From contig QHRA01000173.1 of assembly GCA_003221295.1 (NCBI GenBank), forward strand, positions 1 to 45,026: a stretch of 45,026 nucleotides of DNA, written 5' to 3'. The notes beneath the pieces were generated by a model. That model had not been told where the DNA came from. It ran no database searches and saw nothing but the letters and a program-made list of their open reading frames with translations. The stretch is from Verrucomicrobiota bacterium (GTDB lineage Bacteria > Verrucomicrobiota > Verrucomicrobiia > Chthoniobacterales > UBA10450). The translations under genes and the position numbers were made by a program. Shown here one piece after another: positions 17,143-41,432 of the stretch (the first letter of the stretch is position 1; every line of letters starts with the position of its first letter).

Positions 17143-17204
17143 TGTAGCGGCGGTCTATGACCGCCGAAAGTATCCGAAATCGGCGGTCATAGACCGCCGC
17201 TACA
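17143..17204. repeat. Palindromic repeat family A (double hairpin)
   Basis: Two inverted arms of 24 bases, TGTAGCGGCGGTCTATGACC... (17143-17166) and its exact complement (17181-17204), are separated by 14 bases. Each arm is itself a hairpin (CGGCGGTC, loop TAT or ATA, GACCGCCG). It separates the ATPase and permease genes of MacB. The stop codon of the ATPase (17187-17189) lies inside the right arm, and the permease start lies 7 bases from the left arm. Confidence 0.92.
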
Positions 17205-31220: not shown

Positions 31221-31682
31221 CTACCAGCGATGGAAGGCGGGATGACCTTCCTTCACTGCGACGAAGGTGCCACGGCAGGTCGCGCAAACTTTTCCCTTGG
31301 CGCTCAAGGTGCCGTCGACCGTTGCTCGATCATCGGTTAAATCGACAACTTTCGCTGATAAAGAAACCGGTCCGTTTGATGGTGTCGGCCGTAACAGTTT
31401 GATCGCGTAATCTGCAGTAACGGTACAGGGGGGATGGTCTGCGCCAGCTTTGTTCATCAAGTGCCAGGCCGCCATCCAATTGCAGTGGCAGTCGAGCAGC
31501 GTACCGATGATTCCGCCGTTCAAAACGCCAGGGAATGCCTCGTATTTCGGCTGCGGCATCCATTCCGCAACGACTTCTTCTCCTTTCGGAAAACTGCGAA
31601 TGCGCAAGCCTTCGGCGTTGGCCGGTCCGCAACCCCAGCATGAATTGTTCGGCGCGTACTTTTCCTGGAGTGATTTATTCAT
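31221..31682 (-). CDS. PaaI-like hotdog-fold thioesterase
   Basis: 153 residues. CWGCGPANAEGLRIRSFPKG is the N-terminal signature of a PaaI/hotdog subgroup; FPGVLNGGIIGTLLDCHCNW is the hot-dog helix with the catalytic acidic residue, followed by TADYAIKLLRPTP and VSLSAKVVDLTDDRATVDGT. It likely hydrolyses short acyl-CoAs. The ATG (31680-31682) directly touches palindromic repeat 31683-31744, so there is no room for a conventional ribosome binding site. It is separated from the citrate synthase gene by this repeat only and may share its transcript. Confidence 0.87.
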   Translation of the reverse strand: MNKSLQEKYAPNNSCWGCGPANAEGLRIRSFPKGEEVVAEWMPQPKYEAFPGVLNGGIIGTLLDCHCNWMAAWHLMNKAGADHPPCTVTADYAIKLLRPTPSNGPVSLSAKVVDLTDDRATVDGTLSAKGKVCATCRGTFVAVKEGHPAFHRW

Positions 31683-31744
31683 TGTCGCGGCGCTCTATGA
31701 GCGCCGAAAGTAACAAAGCTCGGCGGTCATAGACCGCCGCTACA
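31683..31744. repeat. Palindromic repeat family A (mixed stems)
   Basis: Left arm GTCGCGGCGCTCTATGAGCG... (31683-31706) and right arm CGGCGGTCATAGACCGCCGC... (31721-31744). Each arm folds on itself (GCTC-TAT-GAGC and GGTC-ATA-GACC stems), but the two arms no longer pair perfectly with each other. It lies between the thioesterase ATG and the citrate synthase stop. Confidence 0.9.
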
Positions 31745-31753
31745 GATTCAAAT

Positions 31754-32896
31754 TCACGCGCCGTTTTTTGATCCGCCAGCGTAAGCGCGCGGCGCTGGCC
31801 CAGTGTAAAGTGATAACGGCCGGATCAACCGATTATTGTCCTGTTGCTCGACCACATGCGCGCACCAGCCAGCAACACGCGAGGCGGCGAAGATCGGCGT
31901 ATTCAGCGCCGGATCGAATCCCAACATTGTTAACACCGGCGCGGCGTAAAGATCGACATTCGCGCACAAATGTTTTTCGCGCTCCATCGTTTGCTCGAGC
32001 TTCTCGCAAATCGGAATCCAATTTTCTTTGCCAGTGCGTTTGCCCAGGTCGCGCCCGATTTCGCGCATCGTCGGCACTCGCGAGTCGCCTTTTTTGTAAA
32101 CGCGATGACCGAATCCCATGATCTTGGCTTTCTTTGCCAGTTGGTCTTTCAACCAATCTTCGGCGCGTTCGGGGGTTTTAATTTCATCGAGCATTCGCAT
32201 CGATTGTTCATTCGCGCCGCCGTGCAACGGTCCTTTTAAGGCGGCGCACGCGCTCGTCACCGCTGCGTAAATATCCGCCAGGGTCGATGCCGTCACCCGC
32301 GCGGCAAAGGTCGAGGCATTGAACTCGTGATCCGCGTACAAAATGAAAATCGTGTCCATCATTTGGATCTGCCAGTCCTGCGGAACTTCACCGCGCAATT
32401 TGTAGAAAAGACTTCCCGCCAGGGTCAGATCCTCGCGCTCTGGTAGTGGCTGTTCGCCGTGCGCGATACGATAGCCATCGGTGATCAAGGTCGAAACCTT
32501 CGCGATTAATCGAATCGATTTGCGAATGTTGGCCGCGTGCGAATGATCGTTCAGTTCCGGATCGAACGCCCCCAGCATCGACACGCCCGTGCGCAGCATG
32601 TCCATCGGATGCGTCTCTTTCGGCATCAATCGCAGCGCATCCAGCACCTGCTTCGGCAGCGTCCGGGCCAAAGCGATTTCGGACGTAAACTTGTTGAGCT
32701 GCTCCACATCCGGCAGCTCGCCGCTAAGCAAAAGATACGCTACCTCCTCGAAGCTCGCTTTCTCCGCCATCTCGTGGATGTCGTAGCCGCGATACATCAG
32801 GCCCGCGTTCGGATCGACCCAGCAGATTTGCGTCTCCCCCGCGATCACGCCGGCGAGGCCAGGGCTGTAAGCCGGTTTGGATTCTTTAGCCGCCAT
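31754..32896 (-). CDS. Citrate / 2-methylcitrate synthase
   Basis: 380 residues, the short type I-like citrate synthase length. SPGLAGVIAGETQICWVDPN and LMYRGYDIHEMAEKASFEEV open the fold. Catalytic residues are seen in CAALKGPLHGGANEQSMRML (His), KIMGFGHRVYKKGDSRVPTM (His) and ANVDLYAAPVLTMLGFDP (Asp). Short enzymes of this type may use acetyl-CoA or propionyl-CoA. Lying beside prpB, prpD and an acyl-CoA synthetase gene, it is probably methylcitrate synthase (PrpC) or dual-function, but the sequence alone does not prove it. Confidence 0.93.
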   Translation of the reverse strand: MAAKESKPAYSPGLAGVIAGETQICWVDPNAGLMYRGYDIHEMAEKASFEEVAYLLLSGELPDVEQLNKFTSEIALARTLPKQVLDALRLMPKETHPMDMLRTGVSMLGAFDPELNDHSHAANIRKSIRLIAKVSTLITDGYRIAHGEQPLPEREDLTLAGSLFYKLRGEVPQDWQIQMMDTIFILYADHEFNASTFAARVTASTLADIYAAVTSACAALKGPLHGGANEQSMRMLDEIKTPERAEDWLKDQLAKKAKIMGFGHRVYKKGDSRVPTMREIGRDLGKRTGKENWIPICEKLEQTMEREKHLCANVDLYAAPVLTMLGFDPALNTPIFAASRVAGWCAHVVEQQDNNRLIRPLSLYTGPAPRAYAGGSKNGA

Positions 32897-33046
32897 TGAG
32901 GTGTTTCTTTACTCGCGAATGGCCAACGTTCAACGGCCAAGATCGACGTTGGCGATTGGAGGGACGCGCGCTGTCATGTCCCAAATTTTGGGGGCCGACC
33001 CGCCATCGCATTGCTATGGCGTAGCAGGCAGCGCGGCGCTCTCCAT

Positions 33047-33910
33047 TTACAGATTACGCGCTCCGGACCAACTTGCCGCCTTTGGATCGTAATCGAGCAA
33101 TTGATAAAGTTCCTCTCGCGTCTGCATTTTCTCCAGCCAATCGCTCTGACTCTCGCGCGTTTTCAAGTCGCGCAAAAATTCCGACGTCGATTTCATGGAA
33201 ACGCGAAATGCACTTTGCGGAAAGATGACCATCCGATAACCCAGCTCACGCAACTCATCGAATGAGAGCAGGGGCGATTTCCCGAATTCCGTCATGTTCG
33301 CCAGCAGCGGAACCTCCACTTCCTTCGTGAAATCGCGAAATTCCTCTTTCGTCTGCAGTGCCTCCGGGAAAATTGCGTCGGCGCCGGCAGCGACGTAAGC
33401 CTGCGCTCGCTTTACCGCGCCGTCGAAACTTTCAATCGCCCGTGCATCCGTTCGCGCGATCACCAAAAAATCTTTATCGCGTTTCGCCGCTACCGCCGCA
33501 GCAATCTTCTCCTCCATGTCGGCTGACGGGATCAGCGATTTTCCCGCGAGATGTCCGCACCGTTTGGGAAATTCCTGATCCTCCAGATGACAGCCGGCCA
33601 AACCCGCGCTTTCCAATTCGCAGATCGTGCGCGCTGCGTTTTCCGCGCCACCAAATCCTGTGTCGGCATCGACAATCGCTGGAATTTTTACCGCCTTGGC
33701 GACAAAACCGGCAAGTAACGCGACCTCGCTTAGAGTTAGCAACCCGATGTCCGGTAATCCCGCGGTGCAATTCGCCAGTCCAGCGCCACTTATATAAACC
33801 GCATTAAATCCGGCACGCTCCACCTGCCGCGCGATCGAAGCGTTTGGCACACCAGGCATCGCCACGCAATCCTTCGCGATCAACTCCCGCAATCGGACTG
33901 CTTTTGTCAT
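33047..33910 (-). CDS. prpB: 2-methylisocitrate lyase PrpB
   Basis: 287 residues from ATG 33910 (MTKAVRLRELIAKDCVAMPG). ICL/PEP mutase superfamily: FNAVYISGAGLANCTAGLPD, IVDADTGFGGAENAARTICE, the catalytic loop FPKRCGHLAGKSLIP with Cys, FLVIARTDARAIESFDGAVK and FPEALQTKEEF. It splits 2-methylisocitrate into pyruvate and succinate. The frame is open upstream; an ATG at 34021 overlapping the prpD stop (TAATG) would add 37 residues encoded almost wholly by palindromic repeat family D. The shorter start already begins where the family begins. Confidence 0.94.
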   Translation of the reverse strand: MTKAVRLRELIAKDCVAMPGVPNASIARQVERAGFNAVYISGAGLANCTAGLPDIGLLTLSEVALLAGFVAKAVKIPAIVDADTGFGGAENAARTICELESAGLAGCHLEDQEFPKRCGHLAGKSLIPSADMEEKIAAAVAAKRDKDFLVIARTDARAIESFDGAVKRAQAYVAAGADAIFPEALQTKEEFRDFTKEVEVPLLANMTEFGKSPLLSFDELRELGYRMVIFPQSAFRVSMKSTSEFLRDLKTRESQSDWLEKMQTREELYQLLDYDPKAASWSGARNL

Positions 33911-34014
33911 TCCGAGCGAAAATGCCACTCCGGCTCGGAGCGAGGAATCCCGTTGCGAAACCTTTAAGGTAACGTCCGCGGAATCCCTCAACTTCGCTCG
34001 GGATGACGGGCTCT
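33908..34014. repeat. Palindromic repeat family D, copy 1
   Basis: Ends TGTCATTCCGAGCGAA and TTCGCTCGGGATGACGGG are inverted; inner words CACTCCGGCTCGGAGCGAGG and AACCTTTAAGGTAACGTCCG recur in copies at 35459-35565 and 37548-37693. It lies between prpD and prpB and contributes the start region of prpB. Confidence 0.88.
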
Positions 34015-34020
34015 TTTTCA

Positions 34021-35409
34021 TTAGGGCATCCGCAGCAGCTTCATCAAATGATGCACGCCACTCTCCTCCTCGAGCGCCCAGGCACATTGCAGAATTTTCG
34101 CGCAATGATCCCGTCCCAGTGCCGGCGCGACCAGATGCAGAAATTTTCGCTCCAGCTCGACGTCCGACACCGGATTTTTCGCGTTGCCCAGCGGATAATC
34201 GACACGCTTTGTCAACATGCGGCCATCTTTCAGTGTGACATGCACGATGTTCGCTACGGCACCTGGATAAAGCGCACTTAGCTCGGCGTTGCGCGTCACT
34301 TTCACGTTTTCCAAAAATTTCCAAATCGTCGGATCGGTAAATCGCGAGGACTGAAATTGTTTGTCGCTTACTTGGCCATCGATCAACGCGATCGCGGTAA
34401 TGTATGGCAGGCTGTGGTCGGCGGTCTCGCGCGTTTCCGGTCTCCATTTTTCCGGCTCGCTTCCGATAATATCGACCGACGCCTCGTGCGATTCGATGTT
34501 AACTGAGGCGACCTGCGAAATGTCGTTGATTTGTTCGCGCAAAAACAACGCCGCCTCGATCGCGCTCTGGCTATGATATTCGGCCGGCCAATATTTGATA
34601 CTCGTGTTCAAAATCATCGACGCTGGTCCCTGCGGATTTTGTGGAAACGGCACCGCGAATTTTTCACCAACGTTACCAAGCGAAACCCCAAGTTCTTTCT
34701 CGAATCCCATTTGCCCTTCAAAAATCGGAGCCGGCCCGGTCATTCCCGCACGCGCGAGCAGCGCCGAGTAAACTCCATGCCGCGCTGCGTTCGCGAATGC
34801 CACCCCTTTCCAATGCGAGAGTTCGCCGACGCGTGCCTGTCGCATTGCTGCGCAGGCCACGCCCGCGATATTGACCGCGTGGCGCATTTTCTCCCGATCA
34901 AGTTTCATCAACTTCGCCGACGCTAGCGCGGTCGAGAACGCCCCGTAGGTCACATGGTCCCAGCCCCGCGAACGAATGCTGGCCGCATCGCACAAACGGC
35001 ATTGCACTTCATAGGCTAGCGCGATCGCGGTAATGGCGTCGCGTCCATTCGCGCCCACGCTCTCCGCCACCGCTAGCACCGCGGAAATATTGTCGCTCGG
35101 ATGCGCCGGTTCCTTCGACAGATAGGTATCGTTGTAATCGAAATAACGGATACAACAGCCAGTCGCGAACGCCGCCCAATCCGGCGGTGCCTGGTGGTGC
35201 GTGCCGACAATGGTCGCACCATGTTTCGCAGAAAATTCCGACGCGACTTCCCGCGCAATCCGGCAGGGCTCTTCGTTCCATGCGCCCAGCGCACAACCTA
35301 TGGAATCGATTACTCGCCGTCTCACTTCGTGCACAGTTTCGCGCGAGAGATCTTCGAAACGCAGGGCCCAAGCGTATTCGGCAAATTGATGGGCGAGCGA
35401 TTTGGTCAT
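34021..35409 (-). CDS. prpD: MmgE/PrpD family 2-methylcitrate dehydratase
   Basis: 462 residues. LRFEDLSRETVHEVRRRVID and SIGCALGAWNEEPCRIAREV open the family; FATGCCIRYFDYNDTYLSKE, AHPSDNISAVLAVAESVG and SIKYWPAEYHSQSAIEAALF carry the conserved Asp, His and Lys positions. The all-helical then alpha/beta layout fits the length. It dehydrates 2-methylcitrate to 2-methyl-cis-aconitate without an iron-sulfur cluster. The stop overlaps an upstream ATG of prpB in the form TAATG. A hydratase/isomerase (AcnD or AcnB) needed for the next step is not in the window. Confidence 0.94.
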   Translation of the reverse strand: MTKSLAHQFAEYAWALRFEDLSRETVHEVRRRVIDSIGCALGAWNEEPCRIAREVASEFSAKHGATIVGTHHQAPPDWAAFATGCCIRYFDYNDTYLSKEPAHPSDNISAVLAVAESVGANGRDAITAIALAYEVQCRLCDAASIRSRGWDHVTYGAFSTALASAKLMKLDREKMRHAVNIAGVACAAMRQARVGELSHWKGVAFANAARHGVYSALLARAGMTGPAPIFEGQMGFEKELGVSLGNVGEKFAVPFPQNPQGPASMILNTSIKYWPAEYHSQSAIEAALFLREQINDISQVASVNIESHEASVDIIGSEPEKWRPETRETADHSLPYITAIALIDGQVSDKQFQSSRFTDPTIWKFLENVKVTRNAELSALYPGAVANIVHVTLKDGRMLTKRVDYPLGNAKNPVSDVELERKFLHLVAPALGRDHCAKILQCAWALEEESGVHHLMKLLRMP

Positions 35410-35458
35410 GAAAAAATTGGAAGCTGCAATGTGACGATGAATGGCGGCTAAGCAACAT

Positions 35459-35565
35459 CGGCATCCCGAGTGGAACTGCCACTCCGGCTCGGACCGAAGG
35501 ATCCTGTGACGTTACCCTTAAAGTCACATTGCGGGATTCCTCGACTTCGTTCGAAATGACGGGAA
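35459..35565. repeat. Palindromic repeat family D, copy 2
   Basis: Between divergent prpD and the acyl-CoA synthetase gene. It starts GGCATCCCGAGTGGAACTGC and ends TTCGTTCGAAATGACGGG; the inner CCACTCCGGCTCGGACCGAA and GACGTTACCCTTAAAG match copy 1. It ends 9 bases before the GTG start of the synthetase and occupies most of the shared promoter region. Confidence 0.87.
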
Positions 35566-35574
35566 AATGTAATC

Positions 35575-37557
35575 GTGAGCGAATTTCAATTCGGTGGCGA
35601 ATTCGTATGGCATCCCTCGCCCGAGCTCATCGCGCAATCGAACCTGCAATCGTTCATCAATCGGCACGACCTCGGTTCATTCGATGAATTAATGCGGCGT
35701 TCCACCAGCGATATCTCCTGGTTCTGGGATACGGTCCTGCGGGACCTCGGCATCGAATTCTACAAGCCCCACGAAAAAGTCGTCGACCTTTCAAAGGGAA
35801 AAGCGACGCCGCAATGGTGCGTTGGCGGCGAAATGAACATCGTCCACAGCCTGCTCGATAAATATGCCGGCACGGCTATCGACAAAAAAATCGCCATCAC
35901 ATCGGAGACGGAGGATGGCAAGTCGCGCCGGCTGACTTACGCTGAGCTTCGCGCCGAAGTAAATAAAATGGCGGGAGCGTTGCATTCGCTCGGTCTGGGC
36001 AAAGACGATGCCATTGGTGTCTTCATGCCAATGGTGCCGGAAATCGTGATCGCGATGCTCGCGATCATCAAGATCGGTGGGATTTTCTTGCCGCTCTTTT
36101 CCGGATTTGGCGTGTCCGCCATCGTGTCGCGCCTAAAAGACGCCGACGGTAAAGCGCTCTTCACTGCGGACGGAACCTTTCGCCGCGGGAAATTTTGCGC
36201 AATGCGACCAATCGCGGAAGAAGCGGCCGCACAAGTTCCGACGCTGAAACATTTGATCGTGCTAACGAAAAACAGCGAGTGGGTTGTAGCTGCCGCCATC
36301 GCTGGCGGCAGGACCGAGGAACCTCTGCCGCTGAGGACAGCAGCAGCCACAACAAACACCGAGAAAACGAGCGCCGAGGATGTGATGATGCTCATCTACA
36401 CCTCAGGCACAACCGGCCGGCCGAAGGGCGCGGTACATACTCACTGCGGGTTCCCGATTAAGGCCGCGCAAGACATGTGGCATGGACTTGATCTTCATGG
36501 TGACGAGACACTCTTCTGGCTTACCGATATGGGGTGGATGATGGGTCCATGGCTCGTTTTTGGGACGCTGGTGCTAGGTGCTACCATGATGCTTTACGAT
36601 GGCGCCCCCGATTTTCCAGGACCCGATCGCGTTTGGAAATTGTGCACCGATCACAAGGTCACCGTGCTGGGCGTTTCGCCCACGCTGATCCGCGCGCTCC
36701 GAAAATATGGCGACGAAATTGTTAATCGGCACGATCTAACGAAACTTAGGAAATTCGCCTCAACCGGCGAACCGTGGAACCCGGATCCCTGGCTCTGGCT
36801 CTTTCGCGTCGTCGGGCGCGGAAAACTGCCGATCATCAATTACTCTGGCGGCACTGAAATTTCCGGCGGCATTCTGATGGGGAATGTGCTGACGCCGATG
36901 AAGCCGTGCGCGTTCTCCGGACCGTTGCCTGGGATGGCGGCCGATGTCGTCGACGAAAATGGAAACTCGATTCGCGGGAAAGTTGGCGAGCTCGTCATTC
37001 GCGAACCCTGGATCGGCATGACGCGCGGATTTTGGCGGGATCCGCAGCGTTATCTCGATACCTATTGGTCGCGCTGGTCTGACGTTTGGGTGCACGGCGA
37101 TTGGGCCGCAATTGATGATGAAGGACTTTGGTACATTCTCGGCCGGAGCGACGACACGATTAAAATTGCCGGGAAACGCGTCGGGCCGGCGGAAGTCGAA
37201 TCGATTCTGGTCGCGCACGCGCACGTCAGCGAAGCAGCGGCGGTCGGCGTGCCGGATTCGATCAAAGGCGAAGCATTGGTTTGCTTTTGCGTCCTGAAAA
37301 ATGGCGACAACGCATCGGCTGACATTGCCCAGGAGTTGAAACAAAGCGTCGCGCGTGACCTCGGCAAAGCGCTGGCGCCGCGCGAGATTATTTTCGTGAC
37401 CGACATTCCGAAAACACGAAATGCAAAAGTGATGCGTCGCATCGTGCGTGCCGCTTATCTCGGCGAAAAACTCGGCGACACTTCGGCGTTGGAAAATCCC
37501 TCGGCAATCGAAGCAATTACTAGTGCGAGAGGAAGTAAGAAAATCTCGTCATCCTGA
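35575..37557 (+). CDS. Acyl-CoA synthetase (acetyl-/propionyl-CoA synthetase type)
   Basis: 660 residues, GTG start. ANL superfamily, AcsA-like: N-terminal SISWFWDTVLRDLGIEFYKP-like segment, P-loop MLIYTSGTTGRPKGAVHTHC (about 272-291), TDMGWMMGPWLVFGTLVLGA, INYSGGTEISGGIL, the hinge WYILGRSDDTIKIAGKRVGP and the acetylatable Lys region PKTRNAKVMRRIVR. It forms acyl-AMP then acyl-CoA; beside prp genes, propionate is the likely substrate. Residues about 237-260 are encoded by a palindromic repeat (36283-36353) and look inserted. The stop TGA lies in repeat family D that follows. Confidence 0.92.
   Translation: MSEFQFGGEFVWHPSPELIAQSNLQSFINRHDLGSFDELMRRSTSDISWFWDTVLRDLGIEFYKPHEKVVDLSKGKATPQWCVGGEMNIVHSLLDKYAGTAIDKKIAITSETEDGKSRRLTYAELRAEVNKMAGALHSLGLGKDDAIGVFMPMVPEIVIAMLAIIKIGGIFLPLFSGFGVSAIVSRLKDADGKALFTADGTFRRGKFCAMRPIAEEAAAQVPTLKHLIVLTKNSEWVVAAAIAGGRTEEPLPLRTAAATTNTEKTSAEDVMMLIYTSGTTGRPKGAVHTHCGFPIKAAQDMWHGLDLHGDETLFWLTDMGWMMGPWLVFGTLVLGATMMLYDGAPDFPGPDRVWKLCTDHKVTVLGVSPTLIRALRKYGDEIVNRHDLTKLRKFASTGEPWNPDPWLWLFRVVGRGKLPIINYSGGTEISGGILMGNVLTPMKPCAFSGPLPGMAADVVDENGNSIRGKVGELVIREPWIGMTRGFWRDPQRYLDTYWSRWSDVWVHGDWAAIDDEGLWYILGRSDDTIKIAGKRVGPAEVESILVAHAHVSEAAAVGVPDSIKGEALVCFCVLKNGDNASADIAQELKQSVARDLGKALAPREIIFVTDIPKTRNAKVMRRIVRAAYLGEKLGDTSALENPSAIEAITSARGSKKISSS
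36283..36353. repeat. Palindromic repeat family C inside the acyl-CoA synthetase gene
   Basis: Arms at 36283-36311 (GTTGTAGCTGCCGCCATCGC...) and 36325-36353 (CTGCCGCTGAGGACAGCAGC...) are inverted with 21 of 29 pairs kept. The left arm resembles TGTAGCCGCCGCCGTCTCCG after rpsR. It encodes VVAAAIAGGRTEEPLPLRTA and a few more residues, between LKHLIVLTKNSEW and the P-loop segment, a site that is variable in the family. Confidence 0.75.
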
Positions 37558-38386: not shown

Positions 38387-40219
38387 CTACACCATCGGAC
38401 GAAAACGCCCGACGATTTCCTGCAAGCGGCCGGTGATTTGACCGAGCGAACAAACTTCCACCGCTTCTAACAACGCAGGAAAGCAGTTTTCGCCGCGTTC
38501 AACGACCGCGCCCAGTTTATCGAGCGCGCGCTTTGATTTCTCCGCGTTTTTCTTTTTGAACTTCTTCAACCGCTCGACTTGCAATTTTTGTTTCGCTCGG
38601 GGAGTCCTCGCCAACTCGACCTCAGGCATCTCATCCGCGCCGTTGCGATAGCGATTTAATCCGACGATCGGACGCGTTCCGTCATAAATTTGTTGTTCGT
38701 AACGGTGGGCGGCATTTTGGATCTGACTGCGCTGATAACGATTCTCCACCGCCGCGAGCACACCGCCGAGCGATTCGATCTCACGAAATTCATCGAGAAT
38801 CGCTTTCTCAACCGCGCGCTCGACTGCTTTCATCCCGGGCGAGCCGCTCAAGATGTTCATGGTGTGCTTAAAGATTCCGGATTCTTCGAGCAGAATTGCC
38901 TGTCCATGCGCGGCAAGACGAATCCATTCCTCGCTTGGCGTGGTAAACGGTTCGTCGGCGCTGTTTGAATGACACGAGTTGGTGCCGTTCATGTAAGCCA
39001 GCATCAATTCGGCCGCGGTGCGGGTGAGGTTATTTTTGAACTCGGCGGCGATGAGCGACCGCCCGCTCGTTTGCGTGTGCAGTTTGAACATCTGTCCGCG
39101 TGCGTTCGCGCCAAAGACGTCGCGCATTCCGATCGCCCAGATTTTTCGCGAAACACGCGCGAGCGCGATGTATTCGACGTCGAGTCCGCAATCGAGGAAG
39201 AAAGAAAGCCGTGGTGCAAACTGATCGACCGGCACGCCCCGCGCACTTAGCATTTCGGCGTAAGCGAAACCATTGGAGAGGGTATAGGCCGCTTGTTGCA
39301 CCGGCGTCGATCCCGCTTCGCCGATGTGATAACCACTGATCGAAACCGGATACCAGCGCGGCATGTTCGCCGTTGTCCATTCAATCATGTCGCAAAGAAA
39401 ACGCAGCGACGCTTCCGTCGGAAAGATCGTTTCATTCTGCGCCTGGACTTCCTTGAAAATGTCGGCCTGAATCGTGCCGCGCAGATTCGGCACCACCTTC
39501 GCACCGAAGCGACGTTTTGCCGCCGCGATGTACATCGCCATGATAATCGGCGCCGGACCGCTGATTGTCATCGAGGCGGAAAAATTTGGAGCGCCGAGCT
39601 CAAAGCCATCGTAGAGCCGTACCATGTCTTCCACCGTGTCGACCGCGACTCCACCCTCGCCAATCTTGCCGAAGACACCGTCGGCATCGGAATCGATTCC
39701 GTAGAGGGTTGGGCCATCGAACGCGGTACTGAGACGTTTCGAGCGCTGATGCGCGCTCAAGAAATGGAAACGCTTGTTCGTGTCCTCAGCCAGCATCAGG
39801 CCGGAAAACAAACGAGTCGGTTCCTCCTGTAGCGGCGGCCGTGTCGGCCGCTCCGCGGGTTTTGCACGCGACACGCGCGCCGCTACAGCTTCGCCGTTTT
39901 TCTGGAAGCTCTCGATCTCGCGCAACGGCTCGAGATACATCTCGCGATAAGCGCCGTTCAGATACGGGAATTCACCCGGCAAACCATCGCCAAAAAGGTA
40001 GCGCGCGATTTCGCCCGGCTCGTCAATCTCGGGCAAAGCCAGGCGCGGCAAAGGCAATCCAGTCGGCGCTTTTGAAATTGGGATTTCCGCTTTGACCTTG
40101 TTCCAGCGGTCGGTCACTGCCTGCGCGAATTTTTCATCACTCCGCGCCCGCTTGACTTGTTCAAGCACAAAACGCCCGTGCTTTTCGACTGCTTCAACGA
40201 CTGCTCCAAGTTTGCTCAT
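38387..40219 (-). CDS. IcmF-type acyl-CoA mutase catalytic subunit (stand-alone)
   Basis: 610 residues; the B12-dependent mutase barrel without its own B12-binding domain. Marks: FPYLNGAYREMY, TNKRFHFLSAHQRSKRLSTA, NLRGTIQADIFKEVQAQNET, PVSISGYHIGEAGSTPVQQA, KLHTQTSGRSL and NSCHSNSADEPFTTPSEEWI. The tail (RLKKFKKKNAEKSKRALDKL, EVCSLGQITGRLQEIVGRFR) is that of IcmF, not of methylmalonyl-CoA mutase. Gln replaces the methylmalonyl-type Arg in VQAQNET. Residues 111-131 come from an in-frame palindromic repeat. Start overlaps the B12/GTPase gene stop by 4 bases. Probably isomerises isobutyryl-, butyryl- or a related acyl-CoA. Confidence 0.9.
   Translation of the reverse strand: MSKLGAVVEAVEKHGRFVLEQVKRARSDEKFAQAVTDRWNKVKAEIPISKAPTGLPLPRLALPEIDEPGEIARYLFGDGLPGEFPYLNGAYREMYLEPLREIESFQKNGEAVAARVSRAKPAERPTRPPLQEEPTRLFSGLMLAEDTNKRFHFLSAHQRSKRLSTAFDGPTLYGIDSDADGVFGKIGEGGVAVDTVEDMVRLYDGFELGAPNFSASMTISGPAPIIMAMYIAAAKRRFGAKVVPNLRGTIQADIFKEVQAQNETIFPTEASLRFLCDMIEWTTANMPRWYPVSISGYHIGEAGSTPVQQAAYTLSNGFAYAEMLSARGVPVDQFAPRLSFFLDCGLDVEYIALARVSRKIWAIGMRDVFGANARGQMFKLHTQTSGRSLIAAEFKNNLTRTAAELMLAYMNGTNSCHSNSADEPFTTPSEEWIRLAAHGQAILLEESGIFKHTMNILSGSPGMKAVERAVEKAILDEFREIESLGGVLAAVENRYQRSQIQNAAHRYEQQIYDGTRPIVGLNRYRNGADEMPEVELARTPRAKQKLQVERLKKFKKKNAEKSKRALDKLGAVVERGENCFPALLEAVEVCSLGQITGRLQEIVGRFRPMV
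39828..39887. repeat. Palindromic repeat family A inside the mutase gene
   Basis: Exactly 60 bases. Outer arms TGTAGCGGCGGCCGTGTCG (39828-39846) and CGACACGCGCGCCGCTACA (39869-39887) pair at 17 of 19 positions. Each half also folds alone (GCGGCCG-TGT-CGGCCGC and CGCG-ACA-CGCG), the double-hairpin plan of 17143-17204. It encodes residues about 111-131 (VAARVSRAKPAERPTRPPL), between EMYLEPLREI and the conserved EEPTRLFSG. Confidence 0.9.
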
Positions 40220-41361
40220 TTGTTCCTCTTTCGCTTCGTAATTAACTCGAACAATTCATCCACGCCAGGATCACGATGGCGTTTGGCAACCGTGGCAACG
40301 ATTTCCTGTTTGCGCTTGTTCTGCGTCAATCGGTGTTCGATTTCGGCCAACGCGGCCTTTGCCCGCTCCAGATCAGTCTTGTTCACCACCACGACGTCGG
40401 CGACATCGAGCATGACAATCTTTTGCAACTGCAAGCGCGCCCCGTAATCGGGATTCATGACCAATACGGTTTGATCGACCAGTTTGTTGCGAAACGGCAG
40501 CGCCTCCTGGCCGGTGCCGACCGTTTCGATGATGACGTAATCGAATCCAGAACGTGCCAGCAGCGCGAGACAGCTTTCGGTCGCTGGCGAAAGTCCTCCA
40601 GCCTGCCCGCGCGTGGCCATGCTGCGCATAAACACCCGATCGTCCTGCGAGTTGATCATCGTGGCACGATCGCCGAGCAACGCGCCTTCGCCGATCACGC
40701 TCGGGTCGTGCGATAAAATTGCGATGCGCGTTTTGCTGTCGCGCTGAAGAAAACGCAAAACCAGCTCATCGATCAACGTCGTTTTGCCTGCGCCACCCGG
40801 ACCGGTAAAACCAATCACTTTAGATGTTCGATCTTTGGTTCGAGCCGCACTGGCATCATTTGATGGTTGATGTTTTCCTCCTCTCGAAGCCGCCTCTTCA
40901 AGTTCGGTCAATTTCCGCGCCAGCGCGAGGTCGGGCTTTGATTTAACGCGGCGCTTTTTCCTTTTGCCGTAATGCTTTTTCACATAGTCGGCCATCTCGG
41001 TGAGCGACGTGCCGGCAAAGAAAATTTCCTCGACGCCTTTGCGCTTCATTTGCCGGGCGTCGTCGTGCGTGATCGTGCCCCCGCCCCCGCCGAAAACTGC
41101 TATGTCATTCGCGCCGTTCTTCTTCAATTGGCTAACGACATCGGCAAAAAAATCGATGTGCCCGCCGTTGTAACTGGAAATCCCGATCGCGGCCACATCC
41201 TCTTGGATAGCCGCGCGCACAATATCGCCGACATAACGATGAAATCCGAGGTAAACGACTTCGATTCCATGCCGGATAAATTCGAGATTAATGGTGTTAA
41301 TGGCGCTGTCGTGTCCATCGCAGATCGGAACCGCAGTAAGAATGCGAATCGGTAAAGCCAT
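40216..41361 (-). CDS. Fused B12-binding domain and MeaI/ArgK-type GTPase chaperone (IcmF N-terminal half)
   Basis: 381 residues. Residues 1-130: B12-binding domain with ICDGHDSAINTINLEFIRHG (base-off His), GISSYNGGHIDFFADVV and VFGGGGGTITHDDARQM, all IcmF-like. Residues 130-180 are a Lys/Arg-rich linker. Residues 183-381: G3E GTPase with IGFTGPGGAGKTTLIDELVL (P-loop), LSHDPSVIGEGALLGDRATM, VFMRSMATRGQAGGLS, IIETVGTGQ and VVVNKTDLERAKAAL (NKxD). It delivers and protects adenosylcobalamin for the mutase coded by the next gene (ATGA overlap). In known IcmF this segment is fused to the mutase. A family A repeat lies 9 bases before its ATG. Confidence 0.93.
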   Translation of the reverse strand: MALPIRILTAVPICDGHDSAINTINLEFIRHGIEVVYLGFHRYVGDIVRAAIQEDVAAIGISSYNGGHIDFFADVVSQLKKNGANDIAVFGGGGGTITHDDARQMKRKGVEEIFFAGTSLTEMADYVKKHYGKRKKRRVKSKPDLALARKLTELEEAASRGGKHQPSNDASAARTKDRTSKVIGFTGPGGAGKTTLIDELVLRFLQRDSKTRIAILSHDPSVIGEGALLGDRATMINSQDDRVFMRSMATRGQAGGLSPATESCLALLARSGFDYVIIETVGTGQEALPFRNKLVDQTVLVMNPDYGARLQLQKIVMLDVADVVVVNKTDLERAKAALAEIEHRLTQNKRKQEIVATVAKRHRDPGVDELFELITKRKRNK

Positions 41362-41370
41362 TTAAGTATT

Positions 41371-41432
41371 TGTAGCGGCGGTCTATGACCGCCGTTTTCC
41401 TTCGACCACGGCGCTCATAGAGCGCCGCTACA
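41371..41432. repeat. Palindromic repeat family A (mixed stems, opposite order)
   Basis: Left arm TGTAGCGGCGGTCTATGACC... (41371-41394) and right arm CGGCGCTCATAGAGCGCCGC... (41409-41432). The GGTC/GACC stem is on the left and the GCTC/GAGC stem on the right, the reverse of 31683-31744. It lies in the divergent space between the B12/GTPase gene and the plus-strand membrane protein gene. Confidence 0.9.

Follow-up and report, generated by a model that had tools for sequence, protein, structure and literature searches.

IcmF is described as one chain in which a B12-binding domain, a G-protein chaperone domain, a linker, and an acyl-CoA mutase domain follow one another, and the locus analyzed here raises the question of what it means when the same domains are encoded by two genes. 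In the window (the whole stretch of 45,026 nucleotides, from a Verrucomicrobiota bacterium, that was analyzed), an open reading frame for a B12-binding and MeaB-type GTPase protein (P0001; 381 aa) lies on the minus strand at 41361-40216 and is followed on that strand by one for an acyl-CoA mutase of the isobutyryl-CoA type (P0002; 610 aa) at 40219-38387, both assigned from Pfam, structure matches, and model alignments. The stop codon of the first gene and the start codon of the second share an ATGA at 40216-40219. Ahead of the mutase ATG, GAAAGAGGAACAA is a good match to a Shine-Dalgarno sequence, its GAGGA lying at 40224-40228 on the minus strand, within the end of the first gene. The adjacent genes are probably cotranscribed. 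Rereading of the minus strand reproduced the two separate reading frames, with these positions and lengths, and the overlap that the first-pass annotation had described; Pfam and gene order likewise agreed with its claim that the domains are of IcmF type, follow the IcmF order, and are separated behind the chaperone.

Pfam indicated a B12-binding domain at residues 6 to 117 of P0001 (E 4e-13) and a MeaB domain (PF03308) at residues 147 to 376 (E 7e-42; 143.7 bits against a cutoff of 23.1). Together with alignments, the matches define a cobalamin-binding Rossmann domain at residues 4 to 135 (40957-41352, minus strand) that contains a DGHD motif and a GTPase domain at residues 177 to 378 (40228-40833, minus strand) that contains a GPGGAGKTT P-loop, switch II Glu279, switch III Gln311 and Lys314, and an NKTD base loop. 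The DGHD motif, in which His17 is the likely cobalt ligand, was invariant in alignment A3 and present in all member rows except one, and the P-loop, the switch II Glu, the switch III Gln/Lys, and NK.D were conserved among members. Gln311 and Lys314 align with IcmF Q341 and K344, the roles of which are given in PMC10481361. The best solved-structure match was the IcmF of C. metallidurans (4XC6), and an AlphaFold model (pLDDT 88.7) aligned over its whole length to IcmF residues 21 to 419 (Z 46; 37% identity); rows from plasmid records were left out of the alignments used for structure prediction. P0001 ends 13 residues past an RHRDPGVD motif, directly after the last G-domain helix (residues 365 to 376), and the MeaB-type C-terminal dimerization extension is absent from it. 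Stand-alone MeaB-type proteins continue further, mostly by 65 to 95 residues, and some relatives of P0001 have C-terminal tails of up to ~60 residues.

The second protein, P0002, matched MM_CoA_mutase at residues 138 to 604 (E 4e-116), and its reading frame ends after the barrel, so that the contrast with classical MCM drawn earlier holds: the mutase has no B12 domain. Within the substrate-binding TIM barrel (residues 132 to 607; 38399-39826, minus strand; defined by Pfam, structure match, and alignment), Phe138 and Gln261 correspond to the ICM-type Phe598 and Gln742 of IcmF, positions that we take to set substrate specificity. Phe and Gln were found in 34 of 34 two-gene members, and Tyr and Arg in 17 of 17 MCM-group rows. 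As for P0001, 4XC6 was the best solved-structure match, and the AlphaFold model of P0002 (pLDDT 85.5) aligned over its whole length to IcmF 447 to 1093 (Z 45; 42% identity). The N terminus of the mutase is an IcmF-type linker (40031-40219, minus strand; helices at residues 3 to 27 and 29 to 45): the first ~63 residues matched the IcmF linker (profile probability 99.1%; E 8e-19), and pLDDT was 93 to 98 across residues 1 to 50. Such a linker was not found in stand-alone mutases, as MCM and HCM structures aligned only from P0002 residue ~64.

Because the two models cover IcmF 21 to 419 and 447 to 1093, the chain is interrupted in the loop that leads from the G-domain to the linker, and ~27 loop residues (IcmF ~420 to 446) are missing there. 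The structured linker of IcmF forms the dimer interface (PMC10356863), and the models predict that these helices remain on the mutase chain. For docking into cryo-EM maps, IcmF has been treated as two rigid bodies, residues 22 to 442 and 443 to 1093 (PMC10481361); judged from the models, the natural cut coincides with the boundary between them. The earlier placement of the split exactly at the chaperone-mutase boundary was therefore right in that the cut follows the chaperone and imprecise in that the break comes just past the G-domain, with the linker staying on the mutase.

The pair resembles C. metallidurans IcmF (4XC6; NCBIfam NF045497) in its order of B12, G, linker, and mutase segments, in its linker helices and the folds of both parts, and in its Phe/Gln specificity residues and switch III Gln/Lys. 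It differs in being two proteins instead of one chain, in lacking the junction loop (~IcmF 420 to 446), in having a shorter mutase core and linker, and in belonging to a separate sister clade with ~42% (mutase) and 37% (B12-G) identity. Against the NF045497 cutoff of 1500 bits, P0001 scored 297 and P0002 scored 526, and no close relative scored above the cutoff. We conclude that the pair lies outside IcmF by the fusion that defines that family, by NF045497 score, and by clade placement. The two-subunit ICM and 2-hydroxyisobutyryl-CoA mutase (HCM; 4R3U) also keep a small B12 subunit apart from the catalytic barrel, but their small subunit has no G-domain, their chaperone is a third gene, they have no IcmF linker, and they occupy another tree branch; here the B12 domain is joined to a MeaB-type GTPase. 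MeaB or MMAA acting with MCM shares the G3E GTPase, its P-loop and switches I to III, and the placement of chaperone and barrel on separate chains. MCM, however, carries its B12 domain at the C terminus of the mutase and has Tyr/Arg where the pair has Phe/Gln and ends after the barrel, and MeaB has the C-terminal extension that is absent here. In the papers that the literature searches covered, no split IcmF was found and IcmF was described solely as one chain. Judged by its sequence, a two-gene, IcmF-like mutase of the ICM type appears to be new relative to the described one-chain IcmF.

A genome scan with one query sequence returned 80 named loci, and 82 related loci (about 80 distinct) were read. 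Chthoniobacterales/Spartobacteria metagenome-assembled genomes (MAGs) and Chthoniobacter flavus Ellin428 account for most of the named loci; a small number come from Opitutae and Phycisphaerales, and one comes from a Planctomycetaceae. At all 82 loci, both genes were on the contig as separate open reading frames, with gene order and shared strand unchanged, and none of the 82 was fused. The genes overlapped by 4 bases at 36 of the loci; at most others the spacing was 0 to 200 bases, and at five it was larger, up to 1778 bases. At L018, L054, and L068, 0.9 to 1.8 kb separates the two genes. Within the class of the window, 31 of 384 genomes had a B12-G match that was close or better, one of which (G705) is an IcmF-type fused open reading frame. 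Long open frames had suggested that G289 and G298, from the same genus or family, might have fused copies, but their DNA shows separate open reading frames. Across 294 Planctomycetota genomes, the one two-gene form seen was the survey's own center, and the IcmF-type matches retrieved with flanks from that phylum were all fused (10 of 10; ~1060 to 1146 aa). In two of the Planctomycetota loci (L208 and L209), a second B12-binding reading frame overlaps the upstream end of the fused IcmF gene. Actinomycetota, Pseudomonadota, Bacillota, Bacteroidota, and Planctomycetota yielded fused forms, as did the one genome of the window's class. We conclude that the two-gene form, carried by many related soil bacteria, is widespread among Verrucomicrobiota, with a small number of Planctomycetota MAGs having it as well. 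Its spread may be wider, because coverage of phyla besides Verrucomicrobiota and Planctomycetota came solely from plasmid records and the one-sequence genome scan.

Trees were built from the mutase core (77 rows), from the B12 and G-domains (59 rows), and from both joined (58 rows), with fused IcmF from Actinomycetota, Pseudomonadota, Bacillota, Bacteroidota, and Planctomycetota, and with G705 in the B12-G tree. All three trees agreed that the two-gene form is a single clade and the sister of all sampled fused IcmF, with support for that placement of 100/99 in the mutase core tree and 100/100 in the B12-G tree. The two-gene and fused clades together stand apart from stand-alone ICM/HCM-like mutases and from MCM, with long branches between groups. 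As the sister of fused IcmF, the two-gene clade is an ancient lineage and did not come about by breakage of any IcmF that exists today. The arrangement had been proposed to be either ancestral or a fission; the trees exclude a recent fission of present-day IcmF, and both an older fission and a prefusion state fit them. Because the outgroup is in three genes, fusion and fission each take one step, which does not fix the direction.

One reading, to which we give an even chance, is that the pair preserves the state before IcmF arose by fusion across the two-gene junction, B12 domain and chaperone having joined earlier. Mutase, B12 domain, and chaperone are separate genes in the outgroups, the B12-chaperone fusion is common to both sister clades, and the 4-base overlap is common among loci. 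Moreover, the ~25 aa by which the fused mutase core is enlarged are absent from the two-gene clade, as is most of the ~40-aa junction loop. By alignment row lengths, the core is ~484 residues in the two-gene clade versus ~508 in the fused clade, a difference that shows no more than enlargements particular to the fused clade. Against a prefusion state, it saves no step over fission, and the two-gene form was seen in fewer phyla than fused forms were. The distribution of fused forms, five phyla plus one genome of the window's class, instead suits an old fission, in which a fused ancestor split at the loop joining its G-domain to its linker and left a lineage now in Verrucomicrobiota and Planctomycetota; we rate this at a little under even. 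Fission is also favored by the linker helices, which connect the domains in IcmF and are kept on the mutase here, but the two-gene clade is not nested within fused IcmF, and no homology between the linker and the C-terminal extension of MeaB could be detected (profile probability 2 to 10%). Had the linker contained sequence from that extension, it would have been decisive for fission. A sequencing error or frameshift at 40216-40219, which the 4-base overlap might suggest and which would leave relatives with a fused gene, is rejected as exceedingly improbable, given 82 two-gene loci with many different junctions and spacers up to 1.8 kb and a Shine-Dalgarno sequence in front of the second gene. 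In its layout, the two-gene form stands midway from three-gene mutase systems to IcmF.

The pair is very probably a two-subunit, adenosylcobalamin (AdoCbl)-dependent isobutyryl-CoA mutase with its B12 subunit fused to the chaperone. The small subunit would hold B12 and be permanently fused to its own G-protein chaperone, and the large subunit would supply the catalytic barrel. Since the mutase keeps the IcmF-type linker, its core is probably a homodimer held by the linker helices. We infer that the B12-chaperone subunit docks noncovalently, one per barrel, as does the B12 subunit of 2-hydroxyisobutyryl-CoA mutase, and that AdoCbl loading or repair would be gated by GTP binding and hydrolysis by way of switch III, in the manner of IcmF and MeaB. 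The genome of the window (87% complete) contains one mutase match, one MeaB-family domain (that of P0001), and one PduO-type adenosyltransferase; no other such mutase and no second MeaB was found in it, and the same was true of the complete genome of a relative (G122). At 87% completeness, a missing MCM or second MeaB is not proof of absence, and with G122 alike, the B12-chaperone subunit is the sole evident chaperone. Some members (G010 and G614) carry additional MeaB or MCM genes.

The assignment of isobutyryl-CoA as the putative substrate draws on the two specificity residues and on gene context. Methylcitrate cycle genes and an acyl-CoA ligase lie beside the mutase at 31221-37557, including genes for a 2-methylcitrate synthase/citrate synthase, a PrpD-like dehydratase, an acetate/propionate-CoA ligase-like protein, and a methylisocitrate lyase that scores above the TIGR02317 cutoff. 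At L061 and L062, the order is B12G-MUT-PrpD-PrpB-PrpC on one strand, and linkage to PrpD and the ligase recurs in several relatives. FadB-like and thiolase genes lie upstream of the pair in a Phycisphaerales MAG, and a thiolase and an AMP-ligase are its neighbors in C. flavus. The context would fit conversion of valine-derived isobutyryl-CoA to n-butyryl-CoA for beta-oxidation, beside propionyl-CoA disposal. That pivalyl-/isovaleryl-CoA or another acyl-CoA is instead the main substrate seems improbable: IcmF also interconverts pivalyl- and isovaleryl-CoA (PMC9974510), and there are 35 fixed differences in the mutase core between the two-gene and fused clades, but all members have the same Phe and Gln as IcmF at both specificity positions, and the context fits isobutyryl, butyryl, and propionyl metabolism.

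The G-domains of IcmF lie at opposite ends, and their dimerization requires larger assemblies (PMC10481361, PMC10356863); linear oligomers have been described (PMC10481361). We suggest, as a speculative extension, that the untethered B12-chaperone subunit might shuttle, forming a MeaB-like G-domain dimer, being loaded or repaired off the mutase, and docking ready-made without higher-order oligomers, a stage that would precede the IcmF fusion. The subunit does lack the C-terminal extension of MeaB. A natural two-chain sister of IcmF allows the benefit of the fusion to be tested directly.

Two minor features concern the mutase gene. At L019 and L083 (G013), a 96-aa open reading frame ~370 bases after the mutase has 44% identity to mutase residues 515 to 610 and is apparently a partial duplicate of the C terminus. 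In the window, a palindromic element (TGTAGCGGCGGTCTATGACCGCC...) has copies at 41371-41432, 17143-17204, and 31683-31744, and a strict pattern of it matched 34 times in the genome versus 0 times in the backwards control. A repeat-like palindrome at 39828-39887 (plus strand; hairpin z -4.3), the arms of which match the window repeat, is a diverged copy that is apparently in frame within the mutase gene; the loop in which it lies (residues ~112 to 131) varies among relatives and is predicted to be disordered. L022 and L030 are among the relatives whose mutases have similar VAA.VSPAK..RPPLQ insertions.
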